Assembly: GCF_030908215.1 (NCBI RefSeq)
Contig: NZ_JAVFJK010000018.1
Coordinates: 1 to 46,236, forward strand
Reading direction: 5' to 3'
Origin: Sinomonas sp. ASV486
GTDB lineage: Bacteria > Actinomycetota > Actinomycetes > Actinomycetales > Micrococcaceae
Length of the DNA: 46,236 nucleotides
The position numbers and the translations under genes are program-made. The notes under the pieces are model-generated. The model searched no databases, was not told where the DNA came from, and worked only from the letters and a program-made list of their open reading frames with translations. Positions 1-46,236 of this stretch are shown here, piece by piece. The number at the start of each line of letters is the position of its first letter. The first letter of the stretch is position 1.

Positions 1-6
1 GACTGC

Positions 7-60
7 TGTGGCGGGACATCGTTGACGCCTTCCGGCATGTCGCGGGACATCGTTGACACC
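7..60 (+). repeat. Duplicated end motif of the IS, outer end
   Basis: Two copies of a 23-bp motif with core GCGGGACATCGTTGAC lie at 7-29 and 38-60, a 31-bp period. They differ at two positions. Related motifs occur at the other end of the element, which suggests paired transposase-binding sites. The binding role is inference. Confidence 0.75.
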
Positions 61-80
61 TCGCCCATTGGGCTTCTGCC

Positions 81-1289
81 ATGTCGAAGAACAAGGTCAT
101 CGTCGTCGCAGTCCTTGAGGGTGGGATGTCCAAGGCCGAAGCAGCCCGCCGGTACGGCATCAGCCGCCAATGGGTCCACCAACTCATCGCCCGCCACGCA
201 GCCGAAGGAGAGGCCGGCCTCGAGGCCCGCTCCCGGCGGCCCCGCACCAGCCCGCAGCAGACGCCGGCCAACGTTCAGGAGAGGATCCTGGTCCTACGCG
301 CCGACCTGCAGGCCAAGGGCCTGGACTCCGGGGCCGAGACCATCGCTGCCCATCTCGGACGCGAGGGCCTCCCGGTGCCCGCGAGCACCACCATCCACCG
401 CATCCTCCGGGCCGCCGGCGCGGTCGCCCCCGAACCCCACAAGCGTCCCAAGTCCTCCCTGCGACGCTTCGCCGCGGCCCAGCCCAACGAGACCTGGCAG
501 TCCGACTTCACCCACTGGCACCTGGCCGACGGCACCGACACCGAGATCATCGACTTCCTCGACGACCACTCCCGCTGCCTGCTCCACCTCACCGCCCACC
601 CCAGGACGACCGGCGCCATCGTCGTGGACGCCTTCCTGGACACCGCACAGGAACACGGCCTGCCCGCCAGCACCCTGACCGACAACGGCATGGTCTACAC
701 CACCCGCCTGGCCGGCGGGAAAGGAGGCCGCAACGCCTTCGAGAGCCTCATCGCAGGGCTCGGGATCGTCCAGAAGAACGGATCCCCCGGCCACCCCCAG
801 ACCCAGGGCAAGATCGAGCGCTTCCACCAGACCCTGAAGAAATGGCTCCACAGCCAGCCTCCGGCCCAGACCATCGAGGACCTGAACGACCAGCTCACCA
901 GATTCCGCCACGTCTACAACCACGAACGCCCCCACCGCGCGCTCGGCAGGCACACACCCGCCGAGGCCTACGCCCAGACCCCCAAGGCCGGCCCCGCGGC
1001 CGCCGCCCAGGGGGCACACTTCCGCGTCCGGACCGACCGCGTCGACGCCGACGGCAAGGTCACCCTCCGCCACGCGGGACGCCTCCGTCACCTCGGCATC
1101 GGCCGCGCCCACAGGCACAAACGCATCATCCTGCTCGTCCACGACGCCGAGGCCACCGCCATCGAGCACGGCACCGGCGAGATCCTCGCCGAGTTCACCA
1201 TCAATCCCACCCGCGGCTACCAGCCCAAAAAACAGAACACCCCCGGTCTGAAGACCGGGGGTGTCAACGATGTCCCGCCACATCCGTAA
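81..1289 (+). CDS. IS481-family transposase, left copy
   Basis: A 402-residue transposase that would cut and join the ends of the surrounding element. An N-terminal helix-turn-helix (about residues 15-40, with SRQWVHQL) is followed by a linker rich in Arg and Pro and an rve integrase core. Likely catalytic residues are D142 (in WQSDFTHW), D201 (in TDNGMVYT) and E246 (in GKIERFHQ), a DDE triad with a 44-residue last spacing. The C-terminal domain ends in DVPPHP. The last roughly 17 codons run through the IS terminator hairpin and the end motifs, so coding and transposition signals overlap. The reading frame is intact. It differs from the right copy by Leu versus Pro in the NTPGxKTGG segment. 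Confidence 0.95.
   Translation: MSKNKVIVVAVLEGGMSKAEAARRYGISRQWVHQLIARHAAEGEAGLEARSRRPRTSPQQTPANVQERILVLRADLQAKGLDSGAETIAAHLGREGLPVPASTTIHRILRAAGAVAPEPHKRPKSSLRRFAAAQPNETWQSDFTHWHLADGTDTEIIDFLDDHSRCLLHLTAHPRTTGAIVVDAFLDTAQEHGLPASTLTDNGMVYTTRLAGGKGGRNAFESLIAGLGIVQKNGSPGHPQTQGKIERFHQTLKKWLHSQPPAQTIEDLNDQLTRFRHVYNHERPHRALGRHTPAEAYAQTPKAGPAAAAQGAHFRVRTDRVDADGKVTLRHAGRLRHLGIGRAHRHKRIILLVHDAEATAIEHGTGEILAEFTINPTRGYQPKKQNTPGLKTGGVNDVPPHP
1227..1264 (-). terminator. Intrinsic terminator inside IS end, facing in from tRNA-Ala
   Basis: Read on the minus strand, that is from the tRNA into the IS, a perfect 12-bp GC-rich stem (ACACCCCCGGTC/GACCGGGGGTGT, 1237-1264) closes a TTCA loop. TCTG and six T residues (1232-1227) follow. 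It would stop transcripts leaving the adjacent tRNA genes and shield the transposase gene from antisense transcription. Confidence 0.85.
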
Positions 1290-1310
1290 AGGATGTCCCG
1301 CTACATCACA
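1260..1310 (-). repeat. Duplicated end motif of the IS, inner end
   Basis: Read inward from 1310, the core GCGGGACATC occurs twice: in TGTAGCGGGACATCC at about 1305-1291 and in TGTGGCGGGACATCGTTGAC from 1282, a 23-bp period. The inner copy matches the outer-end motif almost exactly. The transposase stop codon (1287-1289) lies within this region. Confidence 0.7.
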
Positions 1311-1311
1311 A

Positions 1312-1387
1312 TGGTGGAGGTAAGGGGATTCGAACCCCTGACCTTCTGCATGCCATGCAGACGCGCTACCAACTGCGCCATACCCCC
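1312..1387 (-). tRNA. tRNA-Ala(GGC) with encoded CCA
   Basis: A complete cloverleaf of 76 nt including an encoded CCA. The acceptor is GGGGGTA/TACCTCC, the anticodon loop is ATGGCAT (anticodon GGC, reading GCC/GCU) and the T-arm is AGGGG-TTCGAAT-CCCCT. Its 3' CCA (1314-1312) is one base from the IS end. Its 5' base is one nucleotide from the upstream tRNA-Ala, so the two must come from one precursor. Confidence 0.95.
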
Positions 1388-1388
1388 G

Positions 1389-1461
1389 TGGAGCTGAGGG
1401 GACTCGAACCCCTGACCCCCTGCATGCCATGCAGGTGCGCTACCAGCTGCGCCACAGCCCC
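1389..1461 (-). tRNA. tRNA-Ala(GGC) without encoded CCA
   Basis: A second alanine tRNA of 73 nt with acceptor GGGGCTG/CAGCTCC, the same anticodon loop ATGGCAT and T-loop TTCGAGT. The discriminator A (1389) is followed by a single C and then the first G of the next tRNA, so there is no room for an encoded CCA. It is transcribed first, from the promoter at about 1530-1559. Confidence 0.95.
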
Positions 1462-1529
1462 GAAAGTCCACTCCATCAGCGTGAACAAGGGCCTTTCGGC
1501 CAGCCCACCCCGTTCGGAGCAACTCGACT

Positions 1530-1559
1530 ATCTTAGATCGTCGCGCGCCGTCCGCACAA
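1530..1559 (-). promoter_or_regulatory. Probable promoter of the tRNA-Ala pair
   Basis: On the minus strand a TTGTGC hexamer (1559-1554) is followed by an 18-bp spacer and TAAGAT (1535-1530). The predicted start lies about 60 nt upstream of the first tRNA. The -35 match is only moderate. Confidence 0.5.
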
Positions 1560-1601
1560 ATCCGCCGAGCCGCACGCCGGGCGACCGGGCAGCGTCGTGC
1601 G

Positions 1602-2294
1602 TCACCCCTCCTCGAGGGTCACGGGCACGGGCAGCGTGCCCGCGTTGTGCTCGCCGAGGCGCCACCGCAGAGAGCCGTCGTTGTGGGGCCTGCGCTCCTC
1701 GAGGATCGACCACGAGCAGTTGGACAGCCCGGAGAGCGCACCCCAGAGGTCGTGGGGCAGGCCGAGCAGGTGCGCAAGCCCCACGCGAATCGCGCCGCCG
1801 TGGCTCACGACGACGAGCGTGCCGTCCGCGGCCACGTCACCGAGGGCACGGTCCACGGCTTGGTGGACCCGTGAGGCCACGTCGAGCCGTGTCTCGGCAC
1901 CGCCCGCCGCGGTGTGCACGTCGCCGTCCTCCCAGAGGTGGAGGGCGTCGGGGTCCATGGTGCGGATCGCGTCGAACGTGTGGCCCTGCCAGTTCCCCGC
2001 GTTGGTCTCGCGGAGGCCAGCATCAACTTTCGCGGGCAGGCCTGTGACGGAGGCGAGCGCGTCCGCCGTCGTGCGTGCACGGGCGAGATCCGAACACACG
2101 ATCGCGTCCGGCGAGAGTGAAGCGAGCCGCAGGGCGGCTTCGGCGGCCTGCTGCCGCCCCTCCTCGTTGAGCGGGACGTCGATCTGGCCCTGGAAGCGTC
2201 CGGCGGCGTTCCAGTCGGTGCGTCCGTGGCGCCAGAAGACAATGCGCCTGCCCGTTACCCGCGAGTATCCCGCGCCTGCGGAGTCAGTCGTCAC
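1602..2294 (-). CDS. Histidine phosphatase, GpgP-like
   Basis: A 230-residue histidine-phosphatase (phosphoglycerate-mutase-like) enzyme. The phosphohistidine motif is RHGRTDWN (His23) and the second catalytic histidine is in VVSHGG; an Arg-rich acceptor region (SDLARARTTAD) is also present. The GTG at 2294 is chosen because it follows the rsfS stop by only a few bases. The more upstream ATG at 2369 would overlap rsfS and add an Arg-rich tail. In mycobacteria the gene after nadD and rsfS encodes glucosyl-3-phosphoglycerate phosphatase (GpgP). The same order here makes that the best guess, but substrate cannot be read from the sequence. Confidence 0.85.
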   Translation of the reverse strand: MTTDSAGAGYSRVTGRRIVFWRHGRTDWNAAGRFQGQIDVPLNEEGRQQAAEAALRLASLSPDAIVCSDLARARTTADALASVTGLPAKVDAGLRETNAGNWQGHTFDAIRTMDPDALHLWEDGDVHTAAGGAETRLDVASRVHQAVDRALGDVAADGTLVVVSHGGAIRVGLAHLLGLPHDLWGALSGLSNCSWSILEERRPHNDGSLRWRLGEHNAGTLPVPVTLEEG

Positions 2295-2299
2295 TGGCC

Positions 2300-2692
2300 T
2301 CAGCCCGCGGCGGAGGCGGATGCTCCGGCGCCGTCGAGCCCGAGGTCGATCACCGGGCAGTCCTTCCACAGGCGCTCGAGCGCGTAGAAGGCACGGTCCT
2401 CGTCATGCATGACGTGCACCACCACATCACCGAAGTCCAACAGGACCCAGCGGCCCTCGGACCTGCCCTCGCGGCGCACGGGGCGCCGGTCGAGCTGGAC
2501 CATGAGCTCGTCCTCGACGTTGTCGACGACGGCGTTCACCTGGCGCTCCGACTCCGCGGACGCGATGACGAAGATATCGGTGATGGCCAGACGCTCGCTC
2601 ACGTCCACGGCCACAATATTCTCCGCCAGCTTGTCGGCAGCAGCCTTGGCTGCCGTCCGAGCCAGCTCGATGGCCTGTTCTGTTGCGCTCAC
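2300..2692 (-). CDS. rsfS: Ribosomal silencing factor RsfS
   Basis: A 130-residue RsfS/Iojap protein. It binds uL14 on the 50S subunit and blocks subunit joining when nutrients are short. Characteristic segments are ERLAITDIFVIASA, a middle EGRWVLLDFGDVVVHVM and the C-terminal FYALERLWKDCP. It starts with GTG after an AGGAG site (about 2698-2702). It sits between the tail-anchored protein gene and the histidine phosphatase gene in a minus-strand unit with nadD, the usual actinobacterial arrangement. Length is typical of the family. Confidence 0.95.
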   Translation of the reverse strand: MSATEQAIELARTAAKAAADKLAENIVAVDVSERLAITDIFVIASAESERQVNAVVDNVEDELMVQLDRRPVRREGRSEGRWVLLDFGDVVVHVMHDEDRAFYALERLWKDCPVIDLGLDGAGASASAAG

Positions 2693-2730
2693 TCTTCTCC
2701 TACGGGGTTGCTGACATTTTGCTGCGGAGG

Positions 2731-4116
2731 CTATTTGCTGCCGAGCACGATCATGATGATGGCCACGATGAGGGCGAGGAGGCCCACAGCGGCGACCCCG
2801 AGGAGGATCAGCCGCTCGCGTTCGGCGCGACCCGCTCCTGCCTCCGCGGAGTTCAGGGGGTCGAGCCCGTGGGCGCTGCGCGCCGACACGGGTGCGCCCT
2901 CGGGCGGCTCAGTCCTCCGGGACGACGTCGGTGCGGAGACGGGCTGCGGCGGGCGCTGCCGCGCCGTCCTGCCCGTGATCACGGGCACGTGAGTTGTGGA
3001 GGGCGGCTTCATCACCGGGTGCGGCACTCCCGGGAGGCGCACGAACTCGAGTGGGGTCACCATCGCCAGATTGTCCGTCGCGGCGGGAGCCGGGGCCTTG
3101 CGCGGCGGGGCCACGGCGTCCCTGCGTGATTCCTCGGCAAGGCGCTGCTTGGCCTGCGCACGGCGGTTGAGAATCGCGGCACGCTCTGCCATGGCCACCT
3201 GCTCCGCGAGCACCGCCGGATCGACGTCCGTGCCGCTCCCGCCTCGCTGCGCCTCGAGCATGGCGGTCTGGTTCTTGGCCTGCTCTTTGAGGAGCTCCCG
3301 AGCTGCCGTGATCTGGTCGTGGCTCAGTCTGCGGAACGAACCGGTCTCAGGGCCGAGCGCCGGGGTCACGGTGAGCCCCTGCGGCACGATCCCCTGCATC
3401 GCCGTGGGAGGCGCCGGGTCCACGCCCGGTACCGGAGCACGCCCCGCGCTGCCCGCGCTGTGGCTGGCGTGCCCGTGGGGGGCCGGGATCACCGGCAGAG
3501 CCTGAGCGGGCAGCGATTGACCGCCTTCGGGCTCCGGCTGCGTCGCCGGCAAGGGCGTGCCGACCGTGGGGAGCTTGCCCGTCTCCCGCTCACGGATGGA
3601 CCGTCGGGTCGGGAACGACTGCTGGGCGGCCTGCTCCTTCTCGGCGAGTTCACGCCGCACCCGTTGGGCAGCGCGGTCGCGGGCTCTGGCCTGCGAGCTC
3701 CGCTCGGCCTGGGGCTGGCCGGGGTCGGCCTCGTGCGAGCGGCGGGCCCGCAGGCTCTCGCCTCCGGAGCGATCGGCGGACGACGGCGACGCCTCGGCTC
3801 GTGCTGCAGCCTCAGCCGCGCTCTGGGCGGCTCTCCTGGCCGTGGCACGCTCCCGCGCGGCGGCCTCCGCATCGGCTCGCGCTTGCGCCGCGGCGCGCTC
3901 CCGCGCCGCGGCAGCCTCCGCTTCAGCGCGCTCCCGCACCGCGGCAGCCTCCGCTTCAGCGCGCTCCCGCGCGGCGGCAGCCTCCGCTTCAGCCCGACCG
4001 CGGGCCTCGGCCTCCGCCTGGGCTGGCGTCAGCCGCGTTCCCTCGGCAGCGTCGAGCGAGGCCTGTGCGAGGCGACGCTCGCGCCGGCTCGTCATCGGCT
4101 TGTCCTCGTTGCTCAT
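2731..4116 (-). CDS. Hypothetical tail-anchored protein with Ala/Glu/Arg repeats
   Basis: A protein of about 461 residues with no family I recognise. Residues about 35-95 are a highly charged Ala/Glu/Arg helix built of 11-residue units (RERAEAEAAAA), probably coiled coil. A long Pro/Ala/Gln-rich disordered middle follows, with a short charged helix (SHDQITAARELLKEQAKNQ). The last 27 residues form one hydrophobic helix (LLGVAAVGLLALIVAIIMIVL) ending GSK, so the protein is probably tail-anchored with its bulk in the cytoplasm. The ATG at 4116 is preferred because it lies just after the nadD stop; an upstream ATG at 4260 would overlap nadD. Its position between nadD and rsfS suggests co-expression, not function. 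Confidence 0.8.
   Translation of the reverse strand: MSNEDKPMTSRRERRLAQASLDAAEGTRLTPAQAEAEARGRAEAEAAAARERAEAEAAAVRERAEAEAAAARERAAAQARADAEAAARERATARRAAQSAAEAAARAEASPSSADRSGGESLRARRSHEADPGQPQAERSSQARARDRAAQRVRRELAEKEQAAQQSFPTRRSIRERETGKLPTVGTPLPATQPEPEGGQSLPAQALPVIPAPHGHASHSAGSAGRAPVPGVDPAPPTAMQGIVPQGLTVTPALGPETGSFRRLSHDQITAARELLKEQAKNQTAMLEAQRGGSGTDVDPAVLAEQVAMAERAAILNRRAQAKQRLAEESRRDAVAPPRKAPAPAATDNLAMVTPLEFVRLPGVPHPVMKPPSTTHVPVITGRTARQRPPQPVSAPTSSRRTEPPEGAPVSARSAHGLDPLNSAEAGAGRAERERLILLGVAAVGLLALIVAIIMIVLGSK
3841..3996 (-). repeat. 33-bp in-frame tandem repeats
   Basis: The segment encoding RERAEAEAAAA is repeated about three times almost exactly at a 33-bp period, then degenerates. The 11-residue (hendecad) period fits a right-handed or straight coiled coil. 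The near-identity of units at DNA level makes copy-number variation between strains likely. Confidence 0.75.
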
Positions 4117-4123
4117 GCTTGGC

Positions 4124-4822
4124 TCACCGCGCAGCAGCTGCTGCGCTCCCTGCCTCTCCGTGGTTGTCCTGGCCCCGTCTGCCGTCCTTGCTCGGGCGAG
4201 TTCCGTCGTGTTCTTCAGTGAGGTAGAGGCCGTACTTGGCGATGTACTGCACCACTCCATCCGGCACGAGATACCAGACCGGGTCGGACACCGCCACGCG
4301 GGTACGGCAGTCCGTCGAGGAAATCGCCATGGCCGGGACCTCGAGGAGGCTCACGTCCTTGCGTCCCAGATCGTGGAGCTCATGCCCGGGGCGCGTCACA
4401 CCCACAAAGTGGGCCAGCTCCCAGAGTTCGTCGACGTCCTTCCACGAGACGATCTGCTCCATGGCGTCCGCACCCGTGATGAAGTAGAGATCAGCCTCGG
4501 GCCGCAGACGCCGCAAGTCGCGCAGAGTGTCGATCGTATAGGTCGGCCCTGGACGGTCGATGTCCACCCGGCTGACAGTGAAGCGCGGGTTCGACGCCGT
4601 CGCAATCACCGTCATGAGGTAGCGGTGCTCCGGAGGGCTGACCCTGCGCCCCGACTTCTGCCACGGTTCCCCGGTCGGCACAAAGACGACCTCATCGAGG
4701 TCGAACCTCGCTGCGACCTCACTCGCTGCGACAAGGTGCCCGTGATGGATCGGATCGAAGGTTCCGCCCATGACGCCGAGGCGGACGCGCCGTCCGCTCT
4801 CGGGCTGCTCTCCCGGGGCCAA
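4124..4822 (-). CDS. nadD: Nicotinate-nucleotide adenylyltransferase
   Basis: A 232-residue NadD, joining nicotinate mononucleotide to AMP to give deamido-NAD in NAD synthesis. The nucleotidyltransferase signature [12 protein letters not shown] is near residue 20, followed by [10 protein letters not shown], the GPTYTIDTL substrate loop and the second signature ISSTDCR. The first available start in frame is TTG at 4822 with a weak Shine-Dalgarno site, so the exact N-terminus is uncertain. The N-terminal 12 residues are dispensable by family comparison. The C-terminal 25 residues after GLYLTEEH are charged and probably disordered. It is followed within 8 bases by the tail-anchored protein gene. 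Confidence 0.95.
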
Positions 4823-4833
4823 GGCGAAAGGGC

Positions 4834-5076
4834 TCAGTGGCCCTGACCGCGGTCGTGCTTGTTCGGGTGCTGACGGTGCGGGTCAGCATGCTCGTCGACG
4901 GCCTCGTGGCGGCGGCCGAGGTTCGTGTAGGAGGCCGTGACGAACAGGAGGATCACGAAGATGACAAACATGGCGCCTCCGATCACGAAGGGCGGCGCGA
5001 TAAGCGGCGCGGGCGCCTCCTGGCCTGCGGCTTCGCCGCTCACAGTGACAGCTGCGCTGATCAGCGATGCCAGCAT
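4834..5076 (-). CDS. Small single-pass membrane protein, function unknown
   Basis: An 80-residue protein with an N-terminal hydrophobic stretch, one strong transmembrane helix ([20 protein letters not shown], about residues 30-49) and a His/Asp-rich hydrophilic tail. The ATG at 5076 follows a strong GAAGGGGAG site. It lies immediately upstream of nadD. I do not recognise the family. The His-rich tail could bind metal, but that is speculative. Confidence 0.75.
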
Positions 5077-5156
5077 GGTCTCCCCTTCAGGTCGTAACTC
5101 AGGTATTCAGCTGCGGGTGCAGCTCCTTGGGCTAGGTTTCATCCTACCCCGGCGGA

Positions 5157-6545
5157 TCAGCCGCGGACCTGTCCCTCGCCCTGCACGATCCACTTGGTGG
5201 TCGTGAGCTCGGAAAGGCCCATCGGCCCGCGCGCGTGCAGCTTCTGGGTCGAGATACCGACCTCGGCCCCGAGTCCCAGCTCCCCCCCGTCCGTGAATCG
5301 TGTCGAGGCGTTCACCATGACGGCAGCGGAATCGATCTCCGCAATGAACCGCTCGGCATTGGCGAGGTCATTGGTGATGATCGCCTCGGTATGTCCGGTG
5401 GTCCAACGGCGGATGTGGGCGAGTGCGTCGTCGAGGCTGTCAACCGTCGCGACGGCGATCTCGAGGTCCATGTACTCGGTGGCCCAGTCGTACTCGGTGG
5501 CCGGCTCGGCGCTGACACCGTCCGGAAGGGCAGCCATGGTGCGGCCGTCCACATGGAGCCGGACCCCCCGCGCGGCAAGAGCGCGCGCCACGGCTGGCAG
5601 GACTGTCGAATCACGGTGCACGAGGACCGTCTCGACCGTGTTGCATACGCTCGGTCGCTGAGTCTTGGCGTTGACGAGGATCTCAACGGCCATGTCCTCG
5701 TCCGCGCTCGCGTCGATGAAGATATGCACGTTGCCCTCGCCGGTCTCGATGACGGGGACCGTCGAGTTGATCACGACGTTCTGGATGAGCTCACGCCCAC
5801 CCCGCGGAATGAGCACATCGACTCGCCCGCGTGCCTTCATCAACGCGTTGGCGCCCTCGCGGCCATAGGCATCGACGCTCTGGACTGCGTCCGCGGGCAG
5901 CCCGACGGAATCGAGCGTGTCCCGCAGGATGTCCAGAAGTGCGGCGTTCGTGTGGGCGGCGGCGCTGCCGCCGCGCAGGATCACAGCGTTGCCGCTCTTG
6001 AGCGCGAGGCCGGCGATGTCCACTGTGACGTTGGGCCGGGCCTCGTAGATCGCGGCAACCACGCCCATCGGAACGTTCACCTGACGGACGCGCAGGCCGT
6101 TGGGGAGGGTCTGGCCGCGCACCACATTTCCTACGGGATCGGGGAGGCCGGCGAGCGTCTCGAGGGCATCGACGAGCCCGTCGATGCGTGCCGGGGTAAG
6201 GGCGAGCCTGTCGAGGAGGGCCGTGGACGTGCCATTGGCACGACCGGCTTCCAGATCCTTGGCATTCGCCGCGAGAACCTGCGCCTCGTTCGCCTTGAGG
6301 GCGGCACCGATCGCGCGGAGGGCGCGGTCCTTCCACGCCCGGTTCGCACGGGCGAGGACTCGGGATGCTGCGCGGGCACGATCTCCCATCGCGTTGACCG
6401 CAGCCTCGACGTCCACTGCGGTGTCCGCGGCCGCGCTTCCCAGTGCCGGGCTCTCCGATGCCGGGCTCTCCATTGCCGCGGCAGCGGCAGCAGTCTGCTC
6501 GGCGGGAAGGGTATCGGGCGCGGCCTCACGCGCAGTGTCAGTCAT
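5157..6545 (-). CDS. proA: Glutamate-5-semialdehyde dehydrogenase (ProA)
   Basis: A 462-residue ProA, which reduces gamma-glutamyl phosphate to glutamate-5-semialdehyde, the second step of proline synthesis. The aldehyde-dehydrogenase fold shows the NADP-site segment [16 protein letters not shown], the catalytic cysteine in [16 protein letters not shown], and the C-terminal [19 protein letters not shown]. The N-terminal roughly 35 residues are Ala/Ser/Pro-rich and exceed the family core. The ATG at 6545 lacks a Shine-Dalgarno site but has a -10-like TAGACT six bases upstream, so translation may be leaderless. proB lies 109 bp upstream on the same strand. Confidence 0.95.
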
Positions 6546-6551
6546 GCATCA

Positions 6552-6557
6552 AGTCTA
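6552..6557 (-). promoter_or_regulatory. Possible -10 for leaderless proA mRNA
   Basis: TAGACT on the minus strand is separated from the proA ATG by six bases, placing the expected transcription start at or next to the start codon. No convincing -35 is present, and a chance match is possible. Confidence 0.35.
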
Positions 6558-6654
6558 CCGAGACGCGCCCGCGCCGGGCCCCGCCCGTGTCACAGGGGCG
6601 AGCAGCGCCGAGCGCCGGGCCACAAAGCGGCAGTGCTGCAGCGTGAAAAACGTC

Positions 6655-7791
6655 TCAGAGGAGCACGAGGTCGTCCACGTGGACGACGACGCGCTCGTAC
6701 TCCGGCCCCATCTCGCGCCCGAGGTCTCTCGTGGAGCGTCCGAGCATCGCCGGCAGCTCGTCCGCGGAAAAGTTCACGAGCCCGCGCGCGAGCACGTGCC
6801 CCGACTGGTCCGCGATCTCCACGGGGTCGCCGGCTTCGAAGTCCCCGGACACGGCCGTCACGCCGGCGGGCAGCAGCGAGCGGTGACGGTCCGCGACGGC
6901 CCGCACCGCGCCGTCGTCGAGCGTCAGCGTCCCCCGGACCGCGGCGAGATGCTCGAGCCACAGGAGCCGAACCGGCTTGCGCCGGCCGCTGACGCTGAAC
7001 CAGGTCCCGACATCCTCCCCCGCCAGCGCCCGCGAGGCCGCCGAGGTAGAGGTCACGAGGGCAGGTATCCCCGAGCTCGCAGCGATCGTGGCGGCCTCAA
7101 CCTTGGTCGCCATGCCGCCCGTGCCCACGCCTGCCTTGCCCGCGCTGCCGATCCGGACGCCGTCGAGGTCCCCCGGACCACGCACATGCCCGATCCGGGT
7201 CCCGCCCTCTGACGGCGGCCCCGTGTACACGGAGTCGACGTCCGAGAGCAGCACGAGCGCGTCCGCGTGGACGAGGTGCGCGACGAGGGCGGCGAGGCGG
7301 TCGTTGTCTCCGAAGCGGATCTCGTGGGTCGCGACGGTGTCGTTCTCGTTGACCACGGGGACCACCCCGAGGTGGAGGAGCTTCTCCAGAGCGCGGTGCG
7401 CGTTCTTGTACTGGGTGCGGCGCACCAGGTCATCCGCGGTGAGGAGGACCTGGCTCACCGTGACGCCGTGCGCTCCGAACGCCTGCGTGTACCGGGCCAT
7501 GAGGAGCCCCTGGCCGACGCTCGCAGCGGCCTGCTGGGTCGCGAGGTCTTTGGGCCTGCGGGCGAGGCCCAGCGGCGCCAGCCCCGCAGCGATCGCGCCC
7601 GAGGAGACGAGCACGATCTCGGTGCCCATGTTGGCCCGCTCCGCGAGCGTGTCGACGAGCGCTGCGAGGGCCTTCTCGGAGATGCCGCCCCGGATAGTCG
7701 TGAGGGACGACGAGCCAACCTTGACCACGATGCGACGCGCAGCAGGCAGCCACTCACGTCCGGCGACCTGCACCTCAGAGGTTGTCGTCAT
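6655..7791 (-). CDS. proB: Glutamate 5-kinase (ProB) with PUA domain
   Basis: A 378-residue ProB that phosphorylates glutamate to gamma-glutamyl phosphate, the feedback-controlled first step of proline synthesis. The kinase domain begins [13 protein letters not shown] and includes [19 protein letters not shown] and [14 protein letters not shown]-terminal PUA domain (about residues 280-370) ends in a short acidic tail. The ATG at 7791 is chosen because the longer upstream frame is only a shadow of obg. The start overlaps the obg stop by 17 bases, implying translational coupling. Confidence 0.95.
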
Positions 7792-9403: not shown

Positions 9404-9435
9404 TTGTAACTCCTAAGGTCTTCGGGTCTGACCCG

Positions 9436-9441
9436 ATTCTA
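9436..9441 (-). promoter_or_regulatory. -10 element ahead of obg
   Basis: TAGAAT on the minus strand lies about 33 bases upstream of the obg GTG and downstream of the rpmA terminator. The matching -35 region is poor. Confidence 0.4.
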
Positions 9442-9474
9442 GTGCTGGCCCCTCGGGAATCCGGTGGGGACAGC

Positions 9475-9507: not shown

Positions 9508-9549
9508 CTCATGCTGGGCGCGCCCTGATGGGCGCGGGTCACTGCAGCG

Positions 9550-38242: not shown

Positions 38243-38253
38243 CCTGTGTGATC

Positions 38254-38718: not shown

Positions 38719-38779
38719 GCCCCCGGCAGCTCGATAGGGTGGGAGGGCCATCCGTCCCCAGACAAGGAGGCCCAAGACA

Positions 38780-39562: not shown

Positions 39563-39956
39563 ACCGACCAGCTCGGCGCAGAAGAGCTTCTACGAGCTCG
39601 TGGGAGGCCACGAGACCTTCGTCAAGCTCGTCGACGTCTTCTACGACGGCGTCGCGGACGACCCTCTCCTGCGCCCGATGTACCCCGAGGCAGACCTTGG
39701 CCCGGCCCGCCGCCGGCTCACCATGTTCCTCGAGCAGTACTGGGGCGGCCCCGGGACGTACAGCGCCGAGCGTGGGCATCCGCGGCTGCGCATGCGCCAT
39801 GTGCCGTTCACGGTGAATCCCGCGGCGCGCGACCGCTGGCTGCACCACATGCGCAGCGGCGTCGACGCGCTCGGACTGCCGCCCGTGTATGAGGCCACGC
39901 TGTGGGACTACCTCGACCGGGCCGCCCACTCCCTCGTCAACTCGTTCGACGACTGA
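39555..39956 (+). CDS. glbO: Group II truncated haemoglobin
   Basis: A 133-residue trHbO-type globin binding haem and O2. FYELVGGHETFVKLVDVFYDG provides helix B with its Tyr, and WGGPGTYSAERGHPRLRMRH leads to the proximal His in RMRHVPF. Trp G8 is in RDRWLHHM, and the C-terminal helix is VYEATLWDYLDRAAHSLV. The start is GTG at 39555 within the end of mscS, with GGAGG about 11 bases upstream. In mycobacteria glbO also lies close to pepN. Confidence 0.92.
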   Translation: MSEPTSSAQKSFYELVGGHETFVKLVDVFYDGVADDPLLRPMYPEADLGPARRRLTMFLEQYWGGPGTYSAERGHPRLRMRHVPFTVNPAARDRWLHHMRSGVDALGLPPVYEATLWDYLDRAAHSLVNSFDD

Positions 39957-39981
39957 ACATTCGACGACCGAGCAGTCAAAG

Positions 39982-40656
39982 CTAGAGGCGGGCGAGAACT
40001 GAGGGCCTCCTGCACAGGATGTGTCCGCGTCCCGACGAGAGCCTGACCCACGGACCGCACGTGAAGCGGAGAAGGTCCTCCCCCGCCGCCGCGAACCCGA
40101 GGACGTGCGCCGCGAACGCTGCGCCCAAGGGCACCCCCGGGCTCGATCCGAGGTCGCGGCCCCAGACGGCGGAGCGCACTCCGTGGACCATCGAGGCGCC
40201 CGGCCGGTCGGGGACGGTCCCGGCCACCTCGCCGATCCCGGCGGTGGCCTCCGTGAGAATGTCGTCGCCGCTGATCGCACCCTGAGGCTCCCACGGCCCC
40301 CGCGGCGGGCTCACCGCGGCCCAGGACGCCCGCACGTGCGTCGGCGGCAGCTCGAGCACGGTCCCCGTCTCGCCGAGCCGCGCGAGACGGTCGAAGACCG
40401 AGGCCATGGACACAATCGCATCCGCGTGCACCGGCTGGGCCAGCGCCATGGTTCTGAGGCCGAGGACCGTCGGCGTGGCCTCGCCAAGGATGCGCGGGCC
40501 GAGGACGCACACGTAGGCGGCGAGGACGCCCCCCACCGCCTGCAGGCGCACGGCACCGTCCTCGACCGCACGTGCCCGCAAAAGGAAGATCCGCAGATCA
40601 GCGACGGCTTGCGGATCCCCGAGATCGAGCGAACCGTCCAGGACTGGGGTGCTCAT
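39982..40656 (-). CDS. Conserved actinobacterial protein, function unknown
   Basis: A 224-residue soluble protein with no domain I recognise. It has an Ala/Leu-rich N-terminal half (VADLRIFLLRARAVEDGAV, VRLQAVGGVLAAYVCVLG) and a Gly-rich C-terminal half ending in FTCGPWVRLSSGRGHILCRR. The ATG overlaps the thioesterase stop in an ATGA arrangement, so the two are translationally coupled and may work together. Convergent with glbO. A catabolic-operon accessory role is only a guess. Confidence 0.75.
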   Translation of the reverse strand: MSTPVLDGSLDLGDPQAVADLRIFLLRARAVEDGAVRLQAVGGVLAAYVCVLGPRILGEATPTVLGLRTMALAQPVHADAIVSMASVFDRLARLGETGTVLELPPTHVRASWAAVSPPRGPWEPQGAISGDDILTEATAGIGEVAGTVPDRPGASMVHGVRSAVWGRDLGSSPGVPLGAAFAAHVLGFAAAGEDLLRFTCGPWVRLSSGRGHILCRRPSVLARL

Positions 40657-41165
40657 GGGCGCACACTCTCGATCGGGAGCGGGGGTCTGCGGCGGAACGG
40701 CACGTCCGGACCGGCAAACTCGGCGAATTCGGCGCGCATGGCGTCCGGAAGCCGAACTGGGCGGCCGGTCTCGCGGCTCACGAGCACCATAGAGGTCGAG
40801 CAGTTGGCACACGTGCTCCCGTCCTGCGGATCGACGACGGTGTAGCCGAGGTCGAAACTGGAACCGCCCACGCGGGTCACCCAGAGGTCAACGAACACAG
40901 GCTCACGCCGATACATGAGGGGCGCGAGGTACTCGATCTCGTGCCGCCCCACCAGGGTGAAGTTCGCCGCGGTCACGAGATCAGCAAGGGTCGCCGCGTT
41001 CTCGCTCCCGGCCTCCGGCGCTGGCGGTGCGGTCCTGAGGGGCGCGTGAATCCAGTGGACGCGGGCATCCTCGAGAAACTGCAGGAAGCGCACATTGTTC
41101 ACATGGCCGTAGGAGTCGACGTCGCCGAAGCGCAGCTGAAGGGGAAACCGGTACGCGGAGGGCAT
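40653..41165 (-). CDS. 4HBT-type acyl-CoA thioesterase
   Basis: A 170-residue single hot-dog protein of the YbgC/FadM kind, hydrolysing acyl-CoA. The signature RFGDVDSYGHVNNVRFLQF contains the catalytic Asp. A beta-rich core follows (VGRHEIEYLAPLMYRREPV and SSFDLGYTVVD). The ATG at 41165 has a weak Shine-Dalgarno site. Divergent from tesB at 82 bases, and coupled to the unknown gene downstream. A thioesterase near ettA is also found in mycobacteria (Rv2475c, from memory). Confidence 0.9.
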   Translation of the reverse strand: MPSAYRFPLQLRFGDVDSYGHVNNVRFLQFLEDARVHWIHAPLRTAPPAPEAGSENAATLADLVTAANFTLVGRHEIEYLAPLMYRREPVFVDLWVTRVGGSSFDLGYTVVDPQDGSTCANCSTSMVLVSRETGRPVRLPDAMRAEFAEFAGPDVPFRRRPPLPIESVRP

Positions 41166-41247
41166 AGATCCATCTTGCCACCACGGCGTCCCGGCCCCGT
41201 GCGGGTCACGTTGGCCGCACGGGCACCGGGCGTCTAGTCTCGGTCCC

Positions 41248-42150
41248 ATGACATCACCCGTCCGGCCCGCGGGGCCCACCGGAACGCTGCTGACCCTCCT
41301 CGATCTCGACAATCTGGGCGGAGCGCGAACCGACAAGGACGTCTTCGTGGGCCCGAGCGAACGCCAGCCACGCCATCGGGTCTTCGGTGGCCAAGTGCTC
41401 GCCCAGAGCCTCATCGCCGCGTCGCGGACGGTCACGGAGGATCGGCCGGTGCATTCGATCCACGCATACTTCCTCCGGCCCGGCGATGCCGACAAGTCCA
41501 TCACGTTCGGCGTCGAGAGACTCCGCGACGGACGCTCGTTCTCCGCGCGCCAGGTGCACGCGTATCAGGACGGCAACCCGATCCTGTCGATGATCGCGTC
41601 CTTCCAGGTCGAGTCGGAGGGAATCGAGCACCAGTCGACCATGCCGCAGGGCATCCCGGACCCGGAATCGCTCCCGAGCACCGCCGATCTCCTAGGGTCC
41701 ATCGACCATCCCGTGGCCCAGTACTGGGCGTACGACCGCCCCTTCGACGTCCGGCACGTTGATCCCGCGATCTACGTCTCCGCCGCCAGCCCTCAGGTGG
41801 CACGGAACGCGGTCTGGATGAAGACCATCGAACCGATGCCCGACGACGATACCCTGCACCGGGCGGCGCTCGCCTTCGCGAGTGACTACACCGTGCTCGA
41901 ACCCGTCCTTCGCCGCCACGGGCTGTCCTGGATCACACCCGGCATGAGCGTTGCGAGCCTGGATCACGCGATGTGGTGGCACCGGCCTGTACGGGTGGAC
42001 GAGTGGCTCCTCTATGTCCAGGAGTCGCCGAGCGCGCAGGGTGCCCGCGCACTCGGCACGGGGAAGATCTTCAACCGCAGCGGCGTGCACGTCGCGAGCG
42101 TGGCGCAGGAGGGCATGATCCGGCTTCCGTACATGGAAGGCCCGGCCTGA
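41248..42150 (+). CDS. tesB: Acyl-CoA thioesterase II
   Basis: A 300-residue double hot-dog thioesterase hydrolysing medium and long acyl-CoA. Motifs are RVFGGQVLAQSLIAASRTV, HSIHAYFLRPGD and RSFSARQVHAYQDG in the first half, and SLDHAMWWHRPVRVDEWLLY in the second, where an Asp-containing motif contributes to the active site. Length agrees with TesB. It is transcribed away from the 4HBT thioesterase, and the pair suggests control of the acyl-CoA pool. It ends at a strong terminator. Confidence 0.93.
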   Translation: MTSPVRPAGPTGTLLTLLDLDNLGGARTDKDVFVGPSERQPRHRVFGGQVLAQSLIAASRTVTEDRPVHSIHAYFLRPGDADKSITFGVERLRDGRSFSARQVHAYQDGNPILSMIASFQVESEGIEHQSTMPQGIPDPESLPSTADLLGSIDHPVAQYWAYDRPFDVRHVDPAIYVSAASPQVARNAVWMKTIEPMPDDDTLHRAALAFASDYTVLEPVLRRHGLSWITPGMSVASLDHAMWWHRPVRVDEWLLYVQESPSAQGARALGTGKIFNRSGVHVASVAQEGMIRLPYMEGPA

Positions 42151-42162
42151 GCAGGCCCGACT

Positions 42163-42205
42163 GAGACGCAAGGCCGGTCCCGACACGGGACCGGCCTTGC
42201 GTCTC
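42163..42205. terminator. Bidirectional terminator between tesB and ettA
   Basis: A perfect 20-bp stem (42163-42182 with 42186-42205, starting GAGACGCAAGGCC) with a 3-nt loop lies between convergent genes. The tail is TCCTGCG rather than a T-tract. Confidence 0.8.
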
Positions 42206-42235
42206 CTGCGCAGGAGCGTCCGCCACTCTGGGCAG

Positions 42236-43918
42236 TCAGTCGCGCCTGAGCTTGCGGTGCGTCACGCGGTGCGGCTTCGCCGCGTCGGCCCCGAGACGCT
42301 CGACCTTGTTCTCCTCGTAGGATTCGAAGTTGCCTTCGAACCAGTACCAGTTGGCCTCGTCCTCATCGGTGCCCTCGTAGGCGAGGATGTGGGTCGCGAC
42401 CCGGTCCAGGAACCAGCGGTCGTGCGAGACGACGACAGCACAGCCCGGGAATTCGAGCAGCGCGTTCTCGAGGCTTGAGAGCGTCTCGACATCGAGGTCG
42501 TTGGTGGGCTCGTCAAGGAGCAGGAGGTTGCCGCCCTGCTTGAGCGTCAGAGCCAGGTTGAGGCGGTTGCGCTCGCCGCCCGAGAGGACACCGGCCTTCT
42601 TCTGCTGGTCCGGGCCCTTGAAGCCGAACGCTGAGACATAGGCGCGCGAGGGCATCTCGACCTGGCCGACCTGGATGTGGTCGAGCCCGTCCGAGACGAC
42701 CTCCCAGAGCGTCTTGTTGGGGTCGATGCCGCCGCGGGACTGGTCCACATAGGAGATCTTGACCGAGTCACCGATCCTGAGGTCGCCGCCGTCGAGTGGC
42801 TCGAGGCCCACGAGGGTCTTGAACAGAGTCGTCTTGCCGACGCCGTTCGGGCCGATCACTCCGACAATGCCGTTGCGCGGGAGCGAGAAGGAGAGCCCGT
42901 CGATCAGGACGCGGTCGCCGAAGCCCTTCTTGAGACCCTTGGCCTCGATGACAAGCTGGCCGAGGCGAGGGCCCGGCGGGATCTGGATCTCCTCGAAGTC
43001 GAGCTTGCGCGTGCGCTCGGCCTCCGCGGCCATCTCCTCGTACCGGGCGAGGCGGGCCTTGGACTTGGTCTGGCGGCCCTTGGCGTTCGAGCGGACCCAG
43101 TCGAGCTCCTCGGAGAGACGCTTGGCCATCTTGGCGTCCTTCTTGCCCTGGACTTCGAGGCGCGCACGCTTCTTCTCGAGATAGGTCGAGTAGTTGCCCT
43201 CGTACGGGTAGAGACGCCCACGGTCCACCTCACAGATCCACTCGGCAACGTGGTCGAGGAAGTAGCGATCGTGGGTCACGGCCAGCACTGCCCCGGGGTA
43301 CGCGGAGAGGTGCTGCTCGAGCCAGAGGACGCTCTCGGCGTCGAGGTGGTTGGTCGGCTCGTCGAGCAGGAGCAGATCCGGCTTCTGCAGGAGCAGCTTG
43401 CACAGTGCCACACGACGGCGCTCGCCACCGGAGAGCACCTTGACGTCGGCGTCCGGTGGCGGGCAGCGCAGCGCGTCCATTGCCTGCTCGAGCTGGGAGT
43501 CGAGGTCCCATGCGTCTGCGGCGTCGATGGCCTCCTGGAGCTTGCCCATCTCCTCGAGCAGCGCGTCGTAGTCCGCGTCCGGGCTCGCCATCTCTTCGGA
43601 GATCTCGTTGAACCGCTGGATCTTCCCGTAGATCTCGCCAACGCCCTCCTGGACGTTGCCGAGGACGGTCTTCTCCTCGTTCAGCGGGGGCTCCTGGAGG
43701 AGGATGCCGACCGAATAGCCCGCCGAGAGCCGGGCCTCGCCATTGGAAGGCGTGTCGAGACCGGCCATGATCTTGAGGATGGTCGACTTGCCGGCACCGT
43801 TCGGACCCACGACACCGATCTTGGCGCCGGGGAAGAACGACATGCTCACGTCGTCGAGGATGACCTTGTCGCCCACAGCCTTGCGGGCCTTGGTCATGGT
43901 GTAGATGAATTCCGCCAT
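42236..43918 (-). CDS. ettA: Energy-dependent translational throttle protein EttA (ABC-F)
   Basis: A 560-residue ABC-F ATPase that binds the ribosomal E site and gates the first elongation step by ATP level. There are two ABC domains: Walker A GPNGAGKST and GPNGVGKTT, signatures LSGGERRRVALCKL and LSGGERNRLNLAL, and Walker B regions LLLLDEPTNHLD and LLLLDEPTNDLD. The linker between them (WVRSNAKGRQTKSKARLARY) is the tRNA-contacting motif. The ATG at 43918 (MAEFIYTMTKARK) is chosen over 43942. Downstream of ssb, across a terminator hairpin. Confidence 0.96.
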   Translation of the reverse strand: MAEFIYTMTKARKAVGDKVILDDVSMSFFPGAKIGVVGPNGAGKSTILKIMAGLDTPSNGEARLSAGYSVGILLQEPPLNEEKTVLGNVQEGVGEIYGKIQRFNEISEEMASPDADYDALLEEMGKLQEAIDAADAWDLDSQLEQAMDALRCPPPDADVKVLSGGERRRVALCKLLLQKPDLLLLDEPTNHLDAESVLWLEQHLSAYPGAVLAVTHDRYFLDHVAEWICEVDRGRLYPYEGNYSTYLEKKRARLEVQGKKDAKMAKRLSEELDWVRSNAKGRQTKSKARLARYEEMAAEAERTRKLDFEEIQIPPGPRLGQLVIEAKGLKKGFGDRVLIDGLSFSLPRNGIVGVIGPNGVGKTTLFKTLVGLEPLDGGDLRIGDSVKISYVDQSRGGIDPNKTLWEVVSDGLDHIQVGQVEMPSRAYVSAFGFKGPDQQKKAGVLSGGERNRLNLALTLKQGGNLLLLDEPTNDLDVETLSSLENALLEFPGCAVVVSHDRWFLDRVATHILAYEGTDEDEANWYWFEGNFESYEENKVERLGADAAKPHRVTHRKLRRD

Positions 43919-43969
43919 GACCATCAATCTACTGGGTACCACGGACTATCACACATCCGTGCCAGACTC

Positions 43970-44008
43970 GGGGAAGGCCCCCGTGCTGTTGGAGCACGAG
44001 GCCTCCCC
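43970..44008 (-). terminator. Terminator hairpin after ssb
   Basis: GGGGA plus GGCC on one side pair with GGCC-TCCCC on the other; the inner arms GTGCT/AGCAC close a 5-nt loop. It lies between the ssb stop and the ettA start. Confidence 0.6.
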
Positions 44009-44023
44009 GGTCCCTGCAGCCGC

Positions 44024-44641
44024 TCACGCCGACAGAAGGCGCCCCTCGGGACCCATCACCTCCCCAGCCCTGTCGCTCTGAGCAGGCGGCTCCGCGCCCT
44101 CGTACGCGGCACCTGTCCCGTTCGGGCCGAGGAACTCGTGGTCCTCGCCGAAGTCCTCCGGCTCAGGACCGAAGAGTTCGTCGGGCCCCGGGTTGCCCGC
44201 GATCTCTCCGGTGGCCGGATCAACAGCCCCGATCCCCTCGACCTGAGTTGTGCTCCGCAGCGAGGGCCCGCGGTCTGCCTCGTCCCGGCGCCGGTTCCAC
44301 CGCGCGATCCCGAGCGCGAGGTCGTGGCCGAGCGAAGTGGCCACCAGGTCTGCCTCCGTCCCGAAGGTGCCGTCCGTGCGCTGGAAGCTCCTGATCTGCA
44401 GCCGGCCCAGGACGATGATGCGCTGGCCCTTGTGGACGCTCTCGGCGACATTGTCCGCGATGTGGCCGTAGCACGCGACGTTGTACCAGCTCGTGTGCCC
44501 GTCCACCCACGACTGCCTCTCGCGGTCGAACCTCCGCTCGTTGACGGACATGCGGAACCTCGAATAGGGCGTGTTGTGCTTCGTGAGCCCCATGGTGGGC
44601 TCGGTGCCGACCCAGCCGCGCAGCGTGATCATGTCGTTCAT
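44024..44641 (-). CDS. ssb: Single-stranded DNA-binding protein paralogue
   Basis: A 205-residue SSB-family protein. An N-terminal OB fold (ITLRGWVGTEPTMG, RFRMSVNERRFDRERQSW, WYNVACYGHIADNVAESV, RIIVLGRLQIRSFQRTDG) is followed by an acidic Gly/Pro/Glu-rich tail. The tail ends EGRLLSA and lacks the canonical DDDIPF-type tip, so it may not recruit the usual SSB partners. The ATG at 44641 has GGAGG about six bases upstream. Mycobacteria have such a second SSB near ettA (Rv2478c, from memory), distinct from the replication SSB beside rpsF. Confidence 0.9.
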   Translation of the reverse strand: MNDMITLRGWVGTEPTMGLTKHNTPYSRFRMSVNERRFDRERQSWVDGHTSWYNVACYGHIADNVAESVHKGQRIIVLGRLQIRSFQRTDGTFGTEADLVATSLGHDLALGIARWNRRRDEADRGPSLRSTTQVEGIGAVDPATGEIAGNPGPDELFGPEPEDFGEDHEFLGPNGTGAAYEGAEPPAQSDRAGEVMGPEGRLLSA

Positions 44642-44733
44642 CTCTCGACCTCCAGTCCGTGGCCGCCCCGACGGGGGGACCTGGATTCAGGGTGTCCCGC
44701 CCTGGAGCCGTGAAGAAGCACCGTCTGCCTGCA

Positions 44734-44742
44734 TGTGGACAA
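44734..44742 (-). promoter_or_regulatory. DnaA box upstream of ssb
   Basis: TTGTCCACA on the minus strand, the consensus DnaA box of high-GC actinobacteria, lies about 95 bases before the ssb ATG. A related but interrupted TGTGG-AGG-ACAA lies nearby at 44761-44772. Control of ssb by DnaA is inference. Confidence 0.5.
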
Positions 44743-44809
44743 CTCGCCGAAGCTGCGTTTGTGGAGGACAACCCAACGGGGGCGTGCCGGTCGGTGCGTC
44801 CCGTCAGGT

Positions 44810-44839
44810 GCGACAGCCCGCCGCGCCGCAGGATAGAAT
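44810..44839 (+). promoter_or_regulatory. tRNA-Arg promoter
   Basis: GCGACA (44810-44815), an 18-bp spacer and TAGAAT (44834-44839) place the start about five bases before the tRNA. Confidence 0.65.
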
Positions 44840-44850
44840 TTCACAGGCCT

Positions 44851-44926
44851 GCCCCAGTAGCTCAGAGGATAGAGCAGGAGCCTTCTAATCTCTTGGTCGG
44901 GGGTTCGATTCCCTCCTGGGGCGCCA
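44851..44926 (+). tRNA. tRNA-Arg(TCT) with encoded CCA
   Basis: Cloverleaf of 76 nt including CCA: acceptor GCCCCAG/CTGGGGC, D-arm GCTC/GAGC, anticodon loop CTTCTAA (anticodon TCT, codon AGA) and T-arm GGGGG-TTCGATT-CCCTC. In the anticodon stem GGAGC/TCTCT the innermost pair is C31-U39, a mismatch. The IS begins at the next base after CCA. Confidence 0.93.
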
Positions 44927-44947
44927 TGTGATGTAGCGGGACATCCT

Positions 44948-46156
44948 TTACGGATGTGGCGGGACATCGTTGACACCCCCGGTCTTCGGACCGGGGGTGT
45001 TCTGTTTTTTGGGCTGGTAGCCGCGGGTGGGATTGATGGTGAATTCGGCGAGGATCTCGCCGGTGCCGTGCTCGATGGCGGTGGCCTCGGCGTCGTGGAC
45101 GAGCAGGATGATGCGTTTGTGCCTGTGGGCGCGGCCGATGCCGAGGTGACGGAGGCGTCCCGCGTGGCGGAGGGTGACCTTGCCGTCGGCGTCGACGCGG
45201 TCGGTCCGGACGCGGAAGTGTGCCCCCTGGGCGGCGGCCGCGGGGCCGGCCTTGGGGGTCTGGGCGTAGGCCTCGGCGGGTGTGTGCCTGCCGAGCGCGC
45301 GGTGGGGGCGTTCGTGGTTGTAGACGTGGCGGAATCTGGTGAGCTGGTCGTTCAGGTCCTCGATGGTCTGGGCCGGAGGCTGGCTGTGGAGCCATTTCTT
45401 CAGGGTCTGGTGGAAGCGCTCGATCTTGCCCTGGGTCTGGGGGTGGCCGGGGGATCCGTTCTTCTGGACGATCCCGAGCCCTGCGATGAGGCTCTCGAAG
45501 GCGTTGCGGCCTCCTTTCCCGCCGGCCAGGCGGGTGGTGTAGACCATGCCGTTGTCGGTCAGGGTGCTGGCGGGCAGGCCGTGTTCCTGTGCGGTGTCCA
45601 GGAAGGCGTCCACGACGATGGCGCCGGTCGTCCTGGGGTGGGCGGTGAGGTGGAGCAGGCAGCGGGAGTGGTCGTCGAGGAAGTCGATGATCTCGGTGTC
45701 GGTGCCGTCGGCCAGGTGCCAGTGGGTGAAGTCGGACTGCCAGGTCTCGTTGGGCTGGGCCGCGGCGAAGCGTCGCAGGGAGGACTTGGGACGCTTGTGG
45801 GGTTCGGGGGCGACCGCGCCGGCGGCCCGGAGGATGCGGTGGATGGTGGTGCTCGCGGGCACCGGGAGGCCCTCGCGTCCGAGATGGGCAGCGATGGTCT
45901 CGGCCCCGGAGTCCAGGCCCTTGGCCTGCAGGTCGGCGCGTAGGACCAGGATCCTCTCCTGAACGTTGGCCGGCGTCTGCTGCGGGCTGGTGCGGGGCCG
46001 CCGGGAGCGGGCCTCGAGGCCGGCCTCTCCTTCGGCTGCGTGGCGGGCGATGAGTTGGTGGACCCATTGGCGGCTGATGCCGTACCGGCGGGCTGCTTCG
46101 GCCTTGGACATCCCACCCTCAAGGACTGCGACGACGATGACCTTGTTCTTCGACAT
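44948..46156 (-). CDS. IS481-family transposase, right copy
   Basis: An intact 402-residue transposase identical to the left one except for Pro in place of Leu in NTPGPKTGG near the C-terminus. The helix-turn-helix and the D142, D201, E246 triad are preserved, so either copy could be active. Both transposase genes point toward the window centre, and each ends against a tRNA 3' end. Confidence 0.95.
   Translation of the reverse strand: MSKNKVIVVAVLEGGMSKAEAARRYGISRQWVHQLIARHAAEGEAGLEARSRRPRTSPQQTPANVQERILVLRADLQAKGLDSGAETIAAHLGREGLPVPASTTIHRILRAAGAVAPEPHKRPKSSLRRFAAAQPNETWQSDFTHWHLADGTDTEIIDFLDDHSRCLLHLTAHPRTTGAIVVDAFLDTAQEHGLPASTLTDNGMVYTTRLAGGKGGRNAFESLIAGLGIVQKNGSPGHPQTQGKIERFHQTLKKWLHSQPPAQTIEDLNDQLTRFRHVYNHERPHRALGRHTPAEAYAQTPKAGPAAAAQGAHFRVRTDRVDADGKVTLRHAGRLRHLGIGRAHRHKRIILLVHDAEATAIEHGTGEILAEFTINPTRGYQPKKQNTPGPKTGGVNDVPPHP
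44973..45010 (+). terminator. Intrinsic terminator inside IS end, downstream of tRNA-Arg
   Basis: ACACCCCCGGTC and GACCGGGGGTGT (12 bp) close a TTCG loop, giving a cUUCGg tetraloop, followed by TCTGTTTTTT. The left copy has TTCA in the loop. It lies 47 bases past the tRNA CCA end. Confidence 0.9.
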
Positions 46157-46236
46157 GGCAGAAGCCCAATGGGCGAGGTGTCAACGATGTCCCGCGACAT
46201 GCCGGAAGGCGTCAACGATGTCCCGCCACAGCAGTC

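Follow-up and report, generated by a model that had tools for sequence, protein, structure and literature searches.

The stretch analysed here (the window) spans 46,236 nucleotides and is the entire contig C10 (NZ_JAVFJK010000018.1) of Sinomonas sp. ASV486, whose 4.28-Mb genome (G000) is assembled into 19 contigs. It terminates at both ends within an insertion sequence (IS) of the IS481 family, and its two arms (1–1310 and 44927–46236) are inverted copies of one element, between which we saw two single-base differences. From the comparisons below, we consider it very likely that this is an IS481-family element whose transposase directs insertion to the T-arm of transfer RNA (tRNA) genes. The full element is 1,369 bp long (TGTGATGTAGCGGG...ATGTCCTGACATCACACA), with one 402-residue transposase open reading frame (ORF) between short imperfect inverted ends, TGTGATGT... 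and ...ACATCACACA; its outermost 59 bp are absent from the window copies and were read, together with the outer flanks, on other contigs. The window contains the following features.

1–1310, + strand: left element copy, truncated by the contig end and without the last 59 bp of the outer end (read on C13, C2 and others)
81–1289, + strand: transposase ORF of the left copy, 402 amino acids
1227–1264, − strand: terminator-like hairpin and T-run, in the direction from tRNA-Ala into the element; the right copy has its mirror image
1311–1326, − strand: inner copy of the 16-bp target duplication CCCTTACCTCCACCAT; the second copy lies past the outer end on C2
1312–1387, − strand: tRNA-Ala(GGC), intact target gene with encoded CCA
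1326–1336, − strand: T-arm motif GGTTCGAATCC, cut after GGTTCGAATC
44851–44926, + strand: tRNA-Arg(TCT), intact target gene with encoded CCA
44902–44912, + strand: T-arm motif GGTTCGATTCC, cut after GGTTCGATTC
44912–44926, + strand: inner copy of the 15-bp target duplication CCTCCTGGGGCGCCA; second copy on C16, single copy at the empty site in strain G011
44927–46236, + strand: right element copy, truncated by the contig end, starting TGTGATGTAGCGGGACATC
44938–44968, + strand: pair of GGGACATC boxes in the tRNA-side end, with GACATC at offsets 13 and 36
44973–45010, + strand: terminator-like hairpin (12-bp stem, TTCG loop) and T-run, from tRNA-Arg into the element, inside the end of the transposase ORF on the opposite strand
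44948–46156, − strand: transposase ORF of the right copy, 402 amino acids

An earlier note, made from the letters of the window, had placed the left copy one base (1311) past the CCA of tRNA-Ala(GGC) and the right copy immediately past the CCA of tRNA-Arg(TCT), with the transposase 3' end towards the tRNA in both. This description is accurate, as is its remark that the two tRNA genes bearing an IS are the only ones in the window to encode CCA (Ala2, Pro and Gly do not). Its proposal of two independent insertions is borne out: the tRNA genes differ, and each duplication has its matching copy on another contig. The outer flanks, to which it pointed for target duplications, do carry them: they are 15–17 bp long and copy the 3' part of the tRNA gene. 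The duplication thus restores the tRNA gene, with the tRNA-side copy whole and a second copy of the 3' part at the outer end.

Copies and empty sites in two strains

We compared G000 with G011, a second strain of the same species assembled as a single contig. G000 contains five left (tRNA-side) ends, located at tRNA-Arg(TCT), tRNA-Ala(GGC), tRNA-Leu(GAG), tRNA-Ser(GCT) and a non-tRNA site on C19, as well as five right ends. Four left/right pairs have a common 15–17-bp duplication (CCTCCTGGGGCGCCA for Arg, CCCTTACCTCCACCAT for Ala, CCCCTCCGCGCACCACG for Leu and CCTAGGTTGCGGGGTC for C19), three of them at tRNA genes (Arg(TCT), Leu(GAG) and Ala(GGC)). The sites at Arg(TCT), the first Leu(GAG) and C19 are uninterrupted in G011, each with a single copy of the duplicated stretch, and the reverse case is a second Leu(GAG) gene, empty in G000 and occupied in G011 by a diverged copy. 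In all, G011 has three copies (one diverged), each behind a tRNA gene and in the same orientation.

The fifth right end of G000 corresponds to the tRNA-Arg(ACG) site of G011. About 20 kb separate tRNA-Ser(GCT) from tRNA-Arg(ACG) in G011 (L179). The G000 assembly lacks tRNA-Arg(ACG) (the contigs concerned are C9 and C14), and 8.7 kb of the 20-kb segment, compared with G000, gave no near-identical match. On the simplest reading, G000 would hold six full copies, with the segment between two of them lost in assembly. Targeting by the element would explain the assembly breaks at tRNA genes in G000.

A diverged copy (80% protein identity) opens contig C16 of G000 (L043, C16:1–4000). It starts exactly at the contig end, so its inner flank is not visible; beyond its outer end, the DNA starts CCCCATCTCCACGTT, resembling a tRNA 3' part.

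Site, orientation and target motif among relatives

As relatives we took the best 80 of 219 related stretches from a contig scan and called tRNA genes with ARAGORN in all of them; not all 80 loci are independent, as some share a genome (for example, four lie on one Acidimicrobiales chromosome). In 59/80 loci, the transposase 3' end is faced by the 3' end of a complete tRNA gene; 75 of the 80 were assessable (the contig stops at L061, L069, L085, L097 and L129), and a reversed tRNA at the transposase 3' end occurred in none of the 80. The tRNA genes abutted represent 11 amino-acid types. The arrangement occurs in many relatives from Actinobacteria and also in a few from Chloroflexi. The remaining 16/80 loci have another left flank, sorted by eye into 8 with only a tRNA 3' part or a degenerate tRNA (L052, L054, L065, L090, L111, L114, L123 and L126), 5 in tandem and 3 elsewhere. 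In an Rfam search of 20 loci (18 from the set of 80), only L083 and L086 gave tRNA genes, off the junction; the tandem locus L086 additionally has tRNA-Gly close to its outer end. Outside this set, plasmid records yielded a close relative in 1 of 72,556 at E 1e-60 (L251, megaplasmid NZ_CP012477.1), which sits behind a tRNA 3' part. Of 17 loci on viral contigs, one is a close relative (L252, 53%); it lies behind tRNA-Pro, likewise oriented.

For comparison, 0/30 loci of ordinary IS481 elements from the same bacterial family (Micrococcaceae) had a tRNA gene in the fetched flank, in a control that takes one best-scoring locus per genome and is biased to classical IS481. Set against this, the 59/80 homologous loci of other genomes at tRNA genes place the pattern beyond chance. 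A phylum-wide control gave a tRNA gene in the flank of 6/28 loci (L220, L225, L230, L233, L237 and L238) and is not a clean negative, containing further tRNA-associated IS481 types.

Target duplications were called by rule (an exact match of at least 11 bp, with ACA before and TGT near the end) and were found in 44/80 loci. In the other 36, several contigs stop near the outer end and elsewhere the rule is too strict; at L052, L099, L116 and L130, duplications missed by the rule are visible in a rule-free comparison of the flanks. The exact sequence TTCRANTC stands directly before the cut in 41 of the 44, the three exceptions being L111 and the tandem loci L060 and L094. The cut, TTCRANTC^C, falls between tRNA positions 61 and 62, and the second cut lies 15–17 bp downstream, mostly just past tRNA position 76 or 77. 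Duplication lengths (n = 44) were 15 bp (14 loci), 16 bp (27), 17 bp (1), 20 bp (1; L084, mis-set by the rule) and 46 bp (1; a tandem locus). A tRNA gene, a placed end and the motif were all available in 56 loci; in these, the element starts 15 (24 loci) or 16 (28) bases from the cut, with 13, 17 or 20 in the other 4. L092 and L107, outside these 56, have TTCGAAAC in place of the motif. On these flank comparisons, the constant feature of the target is the T-loop TTCRANTC, cut just past it with a stagger of mostly 15–16 bp.

Two candidate signals were rejected. Encoded CCA, which the earlier note had linked to insertion, is present in only 19/56 targeted tRNA genes and absent from the Ser and Arg(ACG) target sites of this species. 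A complete tRNA gene is not needed, as tRNA 3' parts and look-alikes serve as targets. What stands of the earlier idea that the tRNA 3' end is recognised is the fixed site and orientation, in the source genome, the second strain and the 80 homologous loci. Likewise, the further copies that it proposed to collect lie mostly at tRNA 3' ends in fixed orientation, but not every copy is at a tRNA gene. In G000, GGTTCRANTCC occurs 57 times, against 7 occurrences of the reversed pattern; this motif alone probably marks mostly tRNA genes, with the 57 matches counted and not individually checked.

The tandem copies at L083, L086, L094, L060 and L079 are separated by a stretch resembling the target duplication. 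Rebuilding of the target at each insertion would leave the same tRNA gene open to a further hit, and tandem copies with such a duplication-like spacer would result.

Ends of the element, mechanism and alternatives

The two ends of the element are unequal. Boxes resembling GGGACATC are located at offsets 13 and 36 of the left end and at 13, 36, 73 and 104 of the right (outer) end, and by a loose box rule applied to 42 relatives (leaving out tandem loci L060 and L094), the right end is richer in 32, poorer in 3 and equal in 7. In Mu and Tn7, unequal ends set orientation; by analogy, they could fix orientation here.

The tRNA-side end also carries a hairpin followed by a T-run. Within 200 bp of this end, the combination occurs in tRNA sense in 54/65 elements and in the opposite sense in 1/65. 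Counted around the transposase 3' end, where the numbers are slightly noisy from a few ORF ends in the wrong reading frame, it was seen in 57/75 members of this branch (other sense 1/75), compared to 1/30 Micrococcaceae IS481 (other sense 3) and 3/25 of the phylum set (other sense 2). The stem sequences vary between branches. We infer that the hairpin works as a terminator for tRNA transcription. By eye, the displaced downstream DNA at Ala, Leu and Arg(ACG) starts with its own hairpin.

The sequences show a target opened with a stagger, one cut falling between tRNA positions 61 and 62 (TTCRANTC^C) and the other 15–17 bp downstream. The element has its transposase 3' end turned to the tRNA. The stretch between the cuts is duplicated: one copy, on the tRNA side, makes the gene whole again, and the other precedes the native downstream DNA. 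We propose that the transposase itself would read the T-arm as DNA, that the unequal ends (two versus four boxes here) would set the orientation, and that the hairpin may halt tRNA transcripts, replacing the displaced native terminator and sparing the transposase gene antisense reading.

Several observations weigh against this scheme. In G000, the left end at Ser and the right end at Arg(ACG) are unpaired in the assembly, the DNA downstream of Ala(GGC) differs in G011 so that no clean empty site exists there, and the C19 copy is not at a tRNA gene, although its target keeps T-loop-like letters at the same distance (GTCAAGTC^CC). Among the 75 assessable relatives, L081, L098 and L130 lie away from tRNA genes. 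L130 is at a T-loop look-alike (GACAAGTC^CC), as is L098 (ATCAAATAC^C, left side only), while the L081 site has no clear look-alike. A further five loci (L060, L079, L083, L086 and L094) adjoin another copy. For the hairpin, 11/65 tRNA-side ends lack one by rule, the rule is satisfied in 233/1,300 simple shuffles (18%), a background that is not low, and the minimum-energy fold predicted for tRNA-Arg joined to the first 104 element bases shows the hairpin but no tRNA cloverleaf. Finally, with a palindromic T-arm and a C19 site inside a repeat, a hairpin could be read instead of letters.

This last point leads to the strongest alternative, in which the transposase recognises a structure or activity (an extruded T-arm hairpin, tRNA transcription or a tRNA-processing factor) and not the DNA letters. 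The palindromic T-arm, the C19 site inside a repeat related to others in G011, and the sister elements (~40% identity), which adjoin repeats, are all in its favour. We nevertheless regard it as unlikely, considering that tRNA 3' parts and look-alikes are used, making a complete tRNA gene unnecessary, and that the same motif precedes the cut in 41/44 loci. Much less probable still is random insertion followed by survival of only those copies that leave the tRNA gene intact. An insertion that leaves the tRNA gene whole and adds a terminator-like hairpin should be harmless, but selection would account neither for a cut fixed to one base nor for the T-loop-like letters of the non-tRNA sites, and ordinary IS481 elements of the same bacterial family were near tRNA genes in 0/30 loci. 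We give practically no weight to a third alternative, refuted by these results, in which the junctions are assembly artefacts (a worry raised in the earlier note) or stem from the joint copying of one ancestral element and its flanking DNA: the G000 copies found in the genome search are indeed at contig ends, but they adjoin different tRNA genes with matching duplications on second contigs, their sites include empty ones in G011, and the same arrangement recurs in single-contig G011 and on long contigs of other genera.

The C19 site itself (L050, also L247) is part of an interspersed repeat, relatives of which occur at other places in G011, and it includes a T-arm-like stretch, GGGGTCAAGTCCC.

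Simple one-gene insertion sequences seldom choose their targets strictly. If the transposase does read the T-arm directly, one protein of ~400 residues seems able to choose many tRNA genes, at a fixed base and in a fixed orientation, and no helper proteins or guides of the Tn7-like kind seem needed for target choice here. Target choice would then be testable in a single protein, and the landing site would be present dozens of times per genome (57 motif matches here) and should be harmless.

Family assignment and related elements

IS481 elements have a single transposase ORF and short imperfect inverted ends beginning TGT. The transposase scores 252.7 bits against the NCBIfam IS481 model NF033577 (cut-off 224) and falls below the cut-offs of the IS3 model NF033516 (127.4 bits, cut-off 160) and the IS21 model NF033546 (66.1 bits, cut-off 160). 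Its Pfam matches are rve and helix-turn-helix (HTH) domains. D142, D201 and E246 are invariant in 44 aligned transposase rows, and these DDE catalytic residues lie within an RNase H fold, as in IS481. The profile searches covered the transposase; other ORFs of the element overlap it in other frames. In a tree of 138 transposases (a quick tree from long rows), 77 of this branch fall on one side of a branch with SH-aLRT 98; sister elements (~40% identity) come next, and both groups together have SH-aLRT 99. The element is a member of a tRNA-targeting branch of the known IS481 family.

An AlphaFold2 model (mean pLDDT 81, pTM 0.64) comprises a helical N-terminus, where Pfam places the HTH, an RNase H-like core and a six-strand C-terminal part predicted to be a beta-barrel. 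The nearest folds, matched via the core, are retroviral integrases, IstA and TnsB; the catalytic domain dominates these matches, which leave the barrel uninformed. The element shares with classical IS481 the curated model, the DDE transposase and the TGT...ACA ends, and differs in a transposase of ~400 residues with the predicted C-terminal beta-barrel, most ordinary IS481 sampled being ~325–335. We considered the extra C-terminal domain as the unique targeting part and found this unsupported, as the flanks fetched for similarly long sister elements show none of them at a tRNA gene. IS481 target duplications are usually ~4–15 bp, so those here (15–17 bp; 15 or 16 bp in 41/44 relatives) are at or just above that maximum. 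The target also differs: the tRNA T-arm with a 15–17-bp duplication here, and NCTAGN as listed in PMC2516522 for ISLxc2, an IS481 member of Leifsonia.

Among other systems that use tRNA genes, casposons and tyrosine-recombinase islands use the 3' ends of tRNA genes, which remain complete, and depend on a Cas1-like or a tyrosine recombinase. The present element shares the use of tRNA 3' ends but has a DDE transposase, and its recombinase is neither Cas1-like nor a tyrosine recombinase, being an rve/HTH protein that matches the IS481 model (the overlapping ORFs were left unscanned). It is also distinct from IS21 (IstA) and Tn7-like TnsB systems by its IS21 score of 66 bits against a cut-off of 160, and as the transposase ORF takes up 1,209 of 1,369 bp, a second, non-overlapping gene for an ATPase would not fit. 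The eukaryotic Dada DDE transposons insert at fixed sites of tRNA and snRNA genes and, in the account given in parts of PMC3706591, belong to another superfamily and make 6–7-bp duplications inside the gene, with one tRNA per family. Unlike Dada, the element here uses many tRNA types, duplicates 15–17 bp and restores the tRNA gene. A literature search, of incomplete coverage and so not establishing absence in print, returned no account of IS481 elements aimed at tRNA genes.

A second branch, at 31–33% identity (L225, L230 and L233), turns its transposase 5' end towards the tRNA. Querying 396 genomes with it gave 20 loci in 15 genomes (L269–L288), of which 8/20 abut a complete tRNA gene, all with the 5' end facing it and three of the eight already in the phylum set. 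L281 abuts a tRNA 3' part, and the other 11/20 have none in view or too short a flank. Three loci could be read (L269, L271 and L281); they have 16-bp duplications and a cut displaced five or six bases further along. Taking both branches together, we lean towards a picture in which an IS481 branch of Actinobacteria and Chloroflexi would use the T-arm, the least variable part of a tRNA gene, as a universal landing site, read directly by the transposase, rebuilding the tRNA gene and supplying a new terminator, with the second branch at tRNA genes in the opposite orientation and its cut shifted by five or six bases.

For Sinomonas elements at ~40% identity, no tRNA gene was found in the flanks of five loci. 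The sister elements L173–L177 and L146 adjoin short repeats, some with candidate duplications of ~14–15 bp by eye. L237 and L238 (IS481, ~28% identity) abut the 3' ends of tRNA-Ser and tRNA-Arg in mutually opposite orientations, with apparent 8–9-bp duplications (by eye).

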